A stretch of DNA of 64,000 nucleotides from Myxococcota bacterium (GTDB lineage Bacteria; Myxococcota_A; UBA796; UBA9615; JAKLKC01), in the NCBI GenBank assembly GCA_023150875.1, contig JAKLKC010000004.1, forward strand, positions 79,993 to 143,992, written 5' to 3'. The position numbers were made by a program, and so were the translations under genes. The notes below the pieces were generated by a model. That model did no database searches. It had not been told where the DNA came from and saw nothing but the letters and a program-made list of their open reading frames with translations. Of this stretch, positions 8,554 to 64,000 are shown piece by piece (positions within the stretch are counted from its first letter, which is position 1; every line of letters starts with the position of its first letter).

Positions 8554-9794
8554 TGCGAAGTGCCCTCCCCCGGCGGCTCGCCGCCCTGCTGCTGTCCCTG
8601 GTGGCGCTGCTGGCCCTGCCGGGGACGGCGTCCGCCCGGCGCACCTTCACCGGCGAGAACCACCTGGACGTCCCCCGCCCCCTGATGAAGGCGACCCAGG
8701 AGGGGCTCGAGATGATCTACCGGCGGGAGTACGTGCCCGCCCTGGACCACTTCGAGGGGATCTCCAAGGACTTCCCCGACTCCCCCGTCGGGCACGTCGG
8801 GCGGGCGCTGGCCTTCCAGTCGATGATGCTGGAGAACTTCGACCTCTCCCACGAGGCCGCCTACGCCCGGGAGCGGGACGCCGCCTACGCCCTGGTGAAC
8901 CGGGCCCTCAAGAGCACCCAGCGGCAGGCCTGGAACCACTTCCTGTACGCCGTCGTCGTGGGGCTCGACGGGATCCACGAGGCCCGGCGCGGGGACATGC
9001 TCACGGGGCTCAACAAGGGCTGGGACGCCGTCGAGGCGATGAAGAAGGCCCGGCGCCTGGACCCGGACTTCGCCGATCCCGAGCTGGGGATCGGGATCTA
9101 CAACTACTGGCGCACCGCCCTCACCGAGGGGAACAAGCAGCTCCCCAAGTTCGGCGACCACCGGGCCGAGGGGATCGCCCAGATGACCTCGGCCCAGCAG
9201 CGGGGCTTCCTGACATGGGCGGCGGCGGGCTTCACCCTGGCCTTCACCTACTGGGAGGACAAGAAGCCCGACCAGGCGGTGGCGGAGTGCGAGAAGCTCC
9301 TGAAGGAGTACCCCGAGAGCGTGATCACCCGGATGCTGCTGGGCCGGGTCCACGCCAAGGCCGACCGGGTGGACGCCGCCCTCGCCCAGTACCGGGAGAT
9401 CCAGCGCCTCGCCCCGCAGAACCAGAGGGTGCTCTTCCTGATCGGCGACCTGCTGTTCAAGAAGAAGGACGACCGGGGCGCCGAGGAGCACTTCATGAAA
9501 TACCTGGCCACCCGGCCGATGGAGCTGGCCCAGGCGAGCGCCTGGTTCCGGATCGGGCAGATCCGGGAGCGGGCCCACGACGTCGAGGGGGCGCTGGGGG
9601 CCTACCAGGCGGCCCTCCAGCTCGCCCCCAAGTACTCCCAGGCCGAGAAGCGCCTCCTGGCGCTCAAGGAGCGCAAGACGGGCAAGGCGGCGCTCCCCGT
9701 GGGGGCGAATGTCTCGGCCCCCGCCGGGGGCAAGGTCGCACCCGCCCCGGGCGTCCCGGCGAAGGCGCCGGCGGCGAGGCTGCCGGCACGCTAG
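8550..9794 (+). CDS. Exported TPR-repeat protein
   Basis: This 414-residue protein has a signal peptide (residues 1 to about 29, ending TASARR). It contains several tetratricopeptide repeats, clearest at about residues 240-370, for example AVAECEKLLKEYPES and ALAQYREIQRLAPQN. The C-terminus is a low-complexity Ala/Pro/Gly/Lys tail. It probably acts as a periplasmic scaffold; no enzyme domain is seen. It is translationally coupled to gshB. Its TAG stop is formed by the TA at the edge of the miniature element that begins at 9792 plus that element's first G. The present C-terminus may therefore have been created by the insertion. Confidence 0.85.
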   Translation: MMRSALPRRLAALLLSLVALLALPGTASARRTFTGENHLDVPRPLMKATQEGLEMIYRREYVPALDHFEGISKDFPDSPVGHVGRALAFQSMMLENFDLSHEAAYARERDAAYALVNRALKSTQRQAWNHFLYAVVVGLDGIHEARRGDMLTGLNKGWDAVEAMKKARRLDPDFADPELGIGIYNYWRTALTEGNKQLPKFGDHRAEGIAQMTSAQQRGFLTWAAAGFTLAFTYWEDKKPDQAVAECEKLLKEYPESVITRMLLGRVHAKADRVDAALAQYREIQRLAPQNQRVLFLIGDLLFKKKDDRGAEEHFMKYLATRPMELAQASAWFRIGQIRERAHDVEGALGAYQAALQLAPKYSQAEKRLLALKERKTGKAALPVGANVSAPAGGKVAPAPGVPAKAPAARLPAR

Positions 9795-10000
9795 TACGTC
9801 GTTCCAGAGCGAGTTCCCCAGTTTCTGAGTCCGCCTTCCAGCTCATCGGCGTCGCGGTCCCGCGAACGGGAGGCCCCGTAGGGCGGGGGCTTGTCCCCCG
9901 CCGAAGCCCCGCGGCGGGGGACAAGCCCCCGCCCTACGTTCCGGATCGGGTGGGCCTGGGAACGGAGAAACTGGGGAGGAACCTTCGGAACGTGGTACTA
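9792..10000. mobile_element. Miniature inverted-repeat transposable element (MITE), TA-flanked
   Basis: A non-coding segment of about 209 bp is bounded by TA dinucleotides (9792-9793 and 9999-10000). Its ends are imperfect inverted repeats of about 36 bp: the left end begins GTACGTCGTTCC and the right end, read inward, begins GTACCACGTTCC, and both share CCCCAGTTTCT further in. The centre is a perfect 27-bp inverted repeat (9877-9938). TA flanks and short size are typical of IS630/Tc1-mariner-type MITEs mobilised in trans. No transposase is encoded in the window. It lies between the TPR gene and priA. Confidence 0.75.
9877..9938. repeat. Perfect 27-bp inverted repeat with 8-nt loop
   Basis: Arms 9877-9903 and 9912-9938 are exact reverse complements with an 8-base loop (AAGCCCCG). 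The sequence type (GTAGGGCGGGGGCTTG...) resembles repeats scattered through many GC-rich genomes. Transcribed from either side, it would form a very stable hairpin between the TPR gene and the convergent priA. It may therefore also act as a transcription barrier, although no U-tract follows. Confidence 0.9.
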
Positions 10001-10005
10001 GTCCG

Positions 10006-45206: not shown

Positions 45207-45246
45207 TTCGGAGGGATCCCCGCAGGGGGGTGGATGCGGGGAGACG

Positions 45247-45302
45247 CCCCTCGCCCCGGGGAGGGGCGAGGGGGCCCGGGGAGGACCTCGCGTCCTCCCC
45301 GG
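45247..45302. terminator. Two consecutive 11-bp hairpins after atpE
   Basis: The first pairs CCCCTCGCCCC (45247-45257) with 45263-45273. The second pairs CCGGGGAGGAC (45276-45286) with 45292-45302. Each has an 11-bp perfect stem and a 5-base loop, 2 bases apart, 15 bases after the atpE stop. There is no U-tract, so they look like strong transcript-end or protection structures rather than a canonical terminator. Confidence 0.6.
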
Positions 45303-58602: not shown

Positions 58603-59610
58603 CTACCAGCGCACGAAGGCGCTCGCCCAGGTGAAGCCGGAGCCGAAGGCGGCGATCAGCACGCGGCTACCGTCCCGGATCCGACCCTGCTCCCGGGCCT
58701 CGTCCAGGGCGATGGGGATGGAGCCGGCGGTGGTGTTGCCGTACCGGTCGATGTTGTGCACCACCTTCTCGGGGTCGATGCCGATCCGCTGCGCCACCGC
58801 CTGGTTGATCCGCATGTTCGCCTGGTGGGGCACCAGCACGTCCACGTCGGCGACCCCCAGGCCGACGTCGGACAGGGCCTCGCCGATGACCTCGGGGAGG
58901 CGCTCCACGGCGTGCTTGAACACCGCCTTGCCGTTCATGCTGGGGTAGTGCCGCCCCTCGCCCAGCATCCCGGCGTGGAGGCGATCGGGGAAGATGCTGG
59001 ACCCCGGCGCCTCGATCCACAGCTCCCGGGCGTGCCGCCCGTCGCAGTGGAGGCGGAGGGTGAGGATCCCCCGCTGGGGATCGTCGGTGGGCCCGACGAC
59101 GACCGCCCCCGCCCCGTCGCCGAAGAGCACCGCCACGTCCCGGCCCGAATCGGTGAAGTCCAGGCCGGTGGAGTGGACCTCGGCGCCCACCACCAGGACG
59201 CGCCGGGCCTGCCCGGTCCGCACGAAGGAGTCGGCGACCGCCAGGGCGTAGACGAAGCCGGTGCACTGGGTTCGGACGTCCATGGCCCCGATCCCCGGCA
59301 GGTCGAGCCTCTCCTGGAGGAAGGCGGATGTGCCGGGGAAGAAGTGGTCGGGGCTCAGGGTGGCCACCACGATGAAGTCGATCTCGTCCTTGCCCATGCC
59401 GGCGTCGGCGAGGGCCGCTCGGGAGGCCTGCTCCGCCAGGTAGGCGGTCCCCTCGCCCGGACCGCTGAAGCGGCGCTCCCGGATCCCCGTGCGCTGCTGG
59501 ATCCACTCGTCGCTGGTGTCGAACCGTCGCGCCAGGTCGTCGTTGGTCACGACCCGCGGCGGAAGGAAACGTCCGGTCCCCAGGATCCGCGACCCCGCCA
59601 CCTTCGCCAT
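58603..59610 (-). CDS. fabH: Beta-ketoacyl-ACP synthase III
   Basis: This 335-residue thiolase-fold enzyme has the Cys-His-Asn triad: Cys in DVRTQCTGFVYAL, His in VLVPHQANMRINQAV and Asn in DRYGNTTAGSIPIALDEA. The N-terminal SRILGTGRFLPPRVVTNDDL is typical. It condenses acetyl-CoA with malonyl-ACP to start fatty-acid synthesis. It is isolated from other fab genes. The upstream region contains a -10-like TATCCT (59665-59670) and the hairpin array that separates it from gyrB. It is followed after 58 bp by the kinase gene. Confidence 0.95.
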   Translation of the reverse strand: MAKVAGSRILGTGRFLPPRVVTNDDLARRFDTSDEWIQQRTGIRERRFSGPGEGTAYLAEQASRAALADAGMGKDEIDFIVVATLSPDHFFPGTSAFLQERLDLPGIGAMDVRTQCTGFVYALAVADSFVRTGQARRVLVVGAEVHSTGLDFTDSGRDVAVLFGDGAGAVVVGPTDDPQRGILTLRLHCDGRHARELWIEAPGSSIFPDRLHAGMLGEGRHYPSMNGKAVFKHAVERLPEVIGEALSDVGLGVADVDVLVPHQANMRINQAVAQRIGIDPEKVVHNIDRYGNTTAGSIPIALDEAREQGRIRDGSRVLIAAFGSGFTWASAFVRW

Positions 59611-59718
59611 GGACGATCCTCCGCTCCGCCCGGGCGATCCGCGCCCGGGGACGTCGCTCGATTCAGGATACCGGACCGCCGTAGGCGCCGGGCGCCTTTC
59701 GTCAAACGTATCTGTCCA

Positions 59719-59838
59719 AGGGGGGTCTCGCGACCCCCCTCTCTGGCGTCTGCGACGCCAGATTCATCCCCCCGCGGGCGGCGGCAGTGCCGCCGCAAGG
59801 GGGCCCGCGGCCCCCTTCCCAACGGCGCCGCCGTTGGG
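59719..59838. repeat. Array of five perfect 9-bp-stem hairpins
   Basis: There are five hairpins, each with a 9-bp perfect stem and a tiny loop. (1) 59719-59740, AGGGGGGTC/GACCCCCCT, 4-nt loop. (2) 59742-59762, TCTGGCGTC/GACGCCAGA, 3-nt. (3) 59778-59796, GCGGCGGCA/TGCCGCCGC, 1-nt. (4) 59797-59817, AAGGGGGCC/GGCCCCCTT, 3-nt. (5) 59818-59838, CCCAACGGC/GCCGTTGGG, 3-nt. Numbers 3-5 abut with no spacer. The stem sequences are unrelated, so this is repetition of shape, not of sequence. A sixth imperfect hairpin lies at 59868-59900. The array fills the gyrB-fabH gap. Confidence 0.9.
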
Positions 59839-59906
59839 CCCCTTCCCCCACCAGGCATCTCGCCCACCGTTCAGGACGGGGCCAAGGCCCCCCTGGACGG
59901 TCTCCG

Positions 59907-64000
<4,094 letters not shown>

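Follow-up and report, generated by a model that had tools for sequence, protein, structure and literature searches.

The genes gyrB and fabH lie next to each other on the same strand of the window (the whole 64-kb stretch of DNA analyzed here), and Pfam matches confirmed both gene assignments of the original prediction. The gap between them, 296 bp long, holds a row of 5 perfect hairpins at positions 59719 to 59838 (Table 1). The row is present as originally described, including the 3 hairpins that abut without a spacer (H3, H4, and H5), but the statement that every stem measures exactly 9 bp applies to H1 to H4 only, the stem of H5 being 10 bp long.

Perfect hairpins were counted in the 64-kb window and in about 200 kb from elsewhere in the same genome. 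In the window, which has a G+C content of 74%, 13 perfect hairpins with a stem of at least 9 bp and a loop of at most 4 nucleotides were found, and the 5 hairpins described here formed the sole cluster. Dinucleotide-preserving shuffling of the window gave a mean of 6.7 such hairpins, and in none of the 40 shuffles did 2 of them lie within 20 bases, which rules out a chance origin of the array. Folded as DNA, the region 59708 to 59904 formed a row of separate hairpins (z = -7.7 against shuffles), which also included a sixth hairpin closing the right end and a short stem of 3 bp; folded as RNA of the gyrB-fabH strand, it gave a z-score of -5.2. Two more hairpins (8 bp at 59629 to 59649 and 7 bp at 59683 to 59697) lie between this region and fabH, and elsewhere in the window 2 neighboring 11-bp hairpins with loops of 5 occupy the short stretch 45245 to 45302.

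Table 1. Features of the gyrB-fabH region, in window coordinates
Feature	Position	Strand	Description	Basis
fabH	58603-59610	-	downstream of gyrB, same strand	Pfam
Left target-site duplication	59700-59707	.	CGTCAAAC, identical to 59905-59912	
Whole MITE-like element, subfamily A	59708-59904	+	197 bp, non-coding	genome-wide copies, target duplication, covariance-model match of 100 bits
Left terminal inverted repeat	59708-59720	+	degenerate GTATCTGTCCAAG; family consensus GTAWCTGTTCAGG	
Hairpin H1	59719-59740	.	9 bp, loop TCGC (4 nt)	perfect-hairpin search
Hairpin H2	59742-59762	.	9 bp, loop TGC (3 nt)	perfect-hairpin search
Short palindrome	59771-59778	.	CCCGCGGG, in the place of CCCCGCGGGG in other subfamilies	
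Hairpin H3	59778-59796	.	9 bp, loop G (1 nt)	perfect-hairpin search
Hairpin H4	59797-59817	.	9 bp, loop CGC (3 nt)	perfect-hairpin search
Hairpin H5	59818-59838	.	10 bp, loop of 1 nt: CCCAACGGCG C CGCCGTTGGG	perfect-hairpin search
Right-end (sixth) hairpin	59866-59901	.	outer stem ACCGTTCAGG/CCTGGACGGT including one G-T pair; inner stem GGGGCC/GGCCCC	DNA fold and sequence
Right terminal inverted repeat	59892-59904	-	degenerate GAGACCGTCCAGG, read inward; family consensus GTAAMCGTTCAGG	
Right target-site duplication	59905-59912	.	CGTCAAAC; holds the gyrB stop codon (59907-59909)	ORF
gyrB	59907-62534	-	intact; insertion at the stop codon	Pfam

We are almost certain that the hairpin array is the interior of a non-coding transposable element of 197 bp. 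Its borders were placed at 59708 and 59904, since exact 8-bp target duplications flank it there, and the terminal repeats of this copy are degenerate (GTATCTGTCC and GAGACCGTCC, beginning GTAT and GAGA). The terminal repeat has an internal copy that faces the end, formed by the outer arms of the right-end hairpin. No transposase gene lies inside the element; complete copies measure 149 to 197 bp and consist of hairpins from end to end.

The element would have entered at the stop codon of gyrB as a whole, in an insertion that duplicated 8 bp of target sequence. As the right duplication contains the stop codon, gyrB is intact. The gene order gyrB, fabH was found in 6 of 6 same-order relatives, with 18 to 107 bp between the aligned parts, and neither a covariance search nor a comparison of the gaps detected the element between these genes in any of the 6. 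Compared with these short gaps, 205 of the 296 bp present here are made up of the element and one duplication, and we therefore conclude that the element entered a conserved gene pair.

The original prediction had raised the possibility that palindromic units were added to this gap one after another by a mechanism that selects palindromes. The stems inside one element are indeed unrelated to each other, and tandem duplication was rightly excluded as their origin. However, the whole 197-bp block, with the same order of hairpins, a single pair of terminal repeats, and a single 8-bp target duplication, recurs in at least 20 other places, which makes serial insertion exceedingly improbable. The idea of a cassette-like array near the origin fell for a related reason, as the hairpins arrived together, as one transposable unit with dispersed copies. 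The view that geometry is repeated rather than sequence holds among the stems within an element; the block as a whole has sequence copies at other sites in the genome.

The genome in question comprises 6.92 Mb in 180 contigs. A search with the array region returned 11 matches, and a covariance model matched 22 copies or fragments in it and gave no match in 70 further genomes from the class. Many copies form contig ends, as expected of repeats, and with about half of all copies located there, the true copy number is probably higher. Copies end in GTAWCTGTTCAGG on the left and, read inward, in GTAAMCGTTCAGG on the right, with GTAACYGTTCAGG as the family-consensus terminal repeat. Exact 8-bp target duplications flank 5 of the 11 copies examined (CGTCAAAC at gyrB, CTCGGGCC at C121, GGGGAGCG at C125, CTCCACCC at C111, and AAGCGGGA at C77), and copy C96 matches at 7 of 8 positions; no duplication was found at the other 5 (2 to 3 of 8 positions matching), in some cases because the copy is truncated. 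An estimate from codon composition assigned 20 of the 21 copies and fragments considered to sequence outside genes. A single terminal-repeat match on C158, between flagellar genes, was set aside as an unrelated or chance site.

The copies fall into subfamilies A (gyrB, C31, C180, C121, and C147), B (C125, C106, C111, C161, C162, and C20), and C (C77, C111, C96, C147, C159, C90, and C178), in which the contigs C111 and C147 appear twice, each bearing 2 different copies. All 3 share the order H1, H2, a palindrome resembling CCCGCGGG, H3, H4, H5, and right end, while their stem sequences differ. Whole hairpins are missing from some copies: C121 and C147 of subfamily A lack H3 and H4, and C162 lacks H1 and H2. 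On 3 further contigs (C128, locus L045; C174, L113; C22, L039), left ends of subfamily C, with H1 and H2, pass into other sequence (CCTCGGCCTTGCGGGCGCAGGG...) that runs to the contig end. These may be the ends of a longer parent element that the assembly lacks; the sequence beyond them was not found in it.

A different dispersed element was seen in the window at about 9791 to 10002. It has a core formed by a perfect 27-bp palindrome (9877 to 9938) and the ends CTAG-TACGTCGTTCC and GGAACGTGGTA-CTAG. In this genome, the searched core occurs in about 25 near-complete copies, mostly 97 to 100% identical, together with many fragments at contig ends, and the element resembles a young MITE of high copy number, with a possible CTAG target duplication. 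At positions 1 to 85 of locus L049 (contig C15), one of its ends abuts a GTAWCYGTTCAGGGG-family end, and the 2 kinds of element are thus nested or adjacent there. This contig end had been considered as a transposase end and proved to be a copy of the second element lying against a hairpin-family end.

Ends that begin with GTAA, together with an 8-bp target duplication, are the ISfinder signature of the IS66 family. The family ends GTAACYGTTCAGG and GTAAMCGTTCAGG begin in this way; the gyrB copy is itself degenerate there. An IS66 element from the same class has the ends GTAACCCCCC and an 8-bp duplication. In a Myxococcales MAG (SLEO, G072) that carries MITEs with the ends of our family, the end GTAACCGTTCAGG adjoins C-terminal remnants of an IS66 transposase (L203 and L206), and an ORF homologous to these remnants in Myxococcales MAG G071 (L191) matches PF03050 at 8.7e-07. 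IS66 remnants with a close variant end, GTAACYATTCAGG, nearby were found in 2 Deltaproteobacteria MAGs. GTAA ends and 8-bp duplications have been described as characteristic of IS66 (PMC11946415), and from these 2 features and the remnants beside such ends we infer that IS66 is the most likely source. An IS66-family transposase recognizing GTAACYGTTCAGG ends would then have moved the element in trans. Also in G072 (C72, L204, around 1307), a Myxococcales element with a GTAACCGTTCAGG end combines a long-range inverted repeat with an IS66 C-terminal remnant and may derive from the same parent by a different deletion.

No IS66 transposase was detected in our own assembly with either PF03050 or the L191 protein, and the gene may have been lost or may reside in unbinned repeats. 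In the genomes examined, remnants beside GTAACCGTTCAGG were seen and no intact IS66 element with these ends. The papers searched yielded no transposon end with the exact terminal-repeat sequence, all 12 text matches being in papers unrelated by title. Because the own assembly holds no cognate transposase, an IS66 origin is probable rather than proven. The same absence would fit a different DDE transposase family that by chance shares 8-bp duplications and GTAA ends, and so would the different inner end sequence of the only IS66 member of the class with readable ends. Such a family is nevertheless quite unlikely, given that these ends adjoin IS66 transposase remnants in a genome carrying MITEs with the same ends, and that the GTAACYATTCAGG variant lies near IS66 remnants in 2 further MAGs. 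We consider it likely that the element is of IS66 type and, for its identity as a whole, similarly likely that it is an IS66-type MITE.

To look beyond this genome, 84,980 species genomes were covered in a single scan for the pair of ends at a spacing of 130 to 160 bp. The scan recovered 33 elements in MAGs labeled Myxococcales, Deltaproteobacteria, Chloroflexales, and Planctomycetota and in 2 Microcystis genomes. Exact 8-bp duplications flank 17 of the 33, from several phyla; the Microcystis matches and some of those in Deltaproteobacteria lack one and are possibly old remnants. Our genome belongs to the same GTDB phylum as the MAGs labeled Myxococcales, and the distribution is patchy, as the end pair is present in 4 of 379 genomes of that phylum. 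In the Myxococcales elements, a hairpin resembling H1 is accompanied by an H2 whose loop is GTGAA, as in subfamilies B and C; those of Chloroflexales have 3 hairpins with stems of up to 20 bp. We tentatively propose a class of IS66-type MITEs that spans phyla and has a core of hairpins in a row, whose order and geometry would be inherited while the stem sequences are replaced through template switching during replication (arm copying and loop flipping), and whose hairpins are possibly needed for mobility.

How the stems stay perfect while their sequences change can be examined in the alignment of subfamilies B and C. Across 44 stem pairs, 97% of the cells were paired and 10 pairs had changed on both sides, versus 37 to 55% paired cells and 0 to 2 double-sided changes in slid controls. 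One gap in this alignment was moved by hand, and the test is fairer than a pairwise comparison of hand-picked perfect stems, in which the differences between subfamilies were also double-sided. Natural selection could yield such changes, if folding of the element's transcript or of its single-stranded DNA is required for transposition or to regulate a neighboring gene; this explanation is compatible with a MITE and competes only with template switching. The retained pairing and the excess of double-sided changes over the controls speak for it, as does the second hairpin with its GTGAA loop, whose position is shared by subfamilies B and C and the Myxococcales elements despite other stem sequences.

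Three observations weigh against selection as the cause. Selection on RNA would favor G-T pairs on one strand, yet departures from pairing within the genome comprised 5 G-T and 4 A-C, without strand preference. Whole hairpins are absent from the copies named above. Moreover, the loops point to a mutational route. Among 7 aligned Chloroflexales copies, the loop of hairpin 2 reads AAA or TTT (with one-base variants in 2 copies) and that of hairpin 3 GCA or TGC; these are exact reverse complements within unchanged flanks, and the 2 hairpins flip separately. The evidence for loop flips is strong in the Chloroflexales family, and our own genome adds one clear case, C77, with the H1 loop GCGT versus ACGC in most others of its subfamily. 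Overall, we regard selection as the somewhat improbable cause of the perfect stems.

Template switching is favored because 3 substitutions are unlikely to produce the exact reverse complement of a triplet, twice. It has been described as homogenizing the arms of inverted repeats and inverting the spacer (PMC8604942) and as creating and maintaining hairpins (PMC8794818). Here, the replication machinery would switch template between the arms of a hairpin, so that one arm is copied from the other and the loop is sometimes inverted; slippage would delete whole hairpins. With moderate confidence, we take template switching to be the main cause of the perfect stems, as the leading route and one that does not exclude selection.

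At gyrB and fabH, the element could plausibly alter fabH expression. One proposal, also compatible with a MITE, is that the array uncouples fabH from gyrB as a transcription terminator, attenuator, or 3' stabilizer. On the mRNA side, it directly follows the gyrB stop codon in an otherwise close gene pair, the RNA fold is strong (see above), and reviews have proposed such roles for MITE transcripts (PMC10969869; PMC2229807). Conversely, no intrinsic terminator (a GC-rich hairpin with a T run after it) was detected on either strand in 59500 to 60000, and copies occupy many unrelated contexts. Insertion would have produced any effect only incidentally. We consider this role rather doubtful. A known RNA family was rejected as the identity of the array, as Rfam gave only matches below the curated threshold (the best at 21.7 bits, with 57 needed).

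With a mobile family in place of an apparent one-off, many insertions of the same hairpins become comparable. This natural set of replicates allows selection and template switching to be tested as causes of perfect hairpins, and also whether expression changes when a hairpin-rich MITE lands in a conserved pair such as gyrB-fabH. The family also cautions that mutation alone can give rise to covariation in mobile DNA, a pattern usually taken as proof of a functional RNA.

Among known systems, REP/BIME sequences and REPINs are similar in being dispersed extragenic palindromes that are sometimes clustered. REPs are not known to have terminal repeats or an 8-bp duplication, and they repeat one palindrome sequence. 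The element described here differs in all 3 respects, its palindromes being mutually unrelated, which rules out membership of REP/BIME. With bacterial MITEs such as Correia/NEMIS, ERIC, RUP, QMITE, and Chunjie, it shares a size of 100 to 200 bp, terminal inverted repeats, a target duplication, a dispersed and mostly intergenic distribution, and a structured sequence. However, those MITEs are described as forming one long stem-loop from both ends, or 2 arms in the case of CIR (PMC2229807), instead of 5 to 6 separate short hairpins in a row, and MITEs are typically AT-rich (PMC10969869), whereas this element is GC-rich. The IS66 family has in common with it the inverted repeats beginning with GTAA, the 8-bp duplications, and the IS66 remnant adjoining such ends in the Myxococcales MAG; it differs in that neither our element nor our assembly holds a transposase, in the hairpin array that forms the interior here, and in the inner end, GTAACYGTTCAGG as against a cited GTAAGCG start (PMC11946415). 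To template-switch (quasipalindrome) systems, the likeness lies in the homogenized arms and inverted spacers (PMC8604942) and in perfect hairpins that are created and maintained (PMC8794818), although those papers deal with yeast coding sequences and RNA hairpins rather than a mobile element with serial hairpins. The core of tandem hairpins is thus unusual for an otherwise known type of element, a probable IS66-type MITE.
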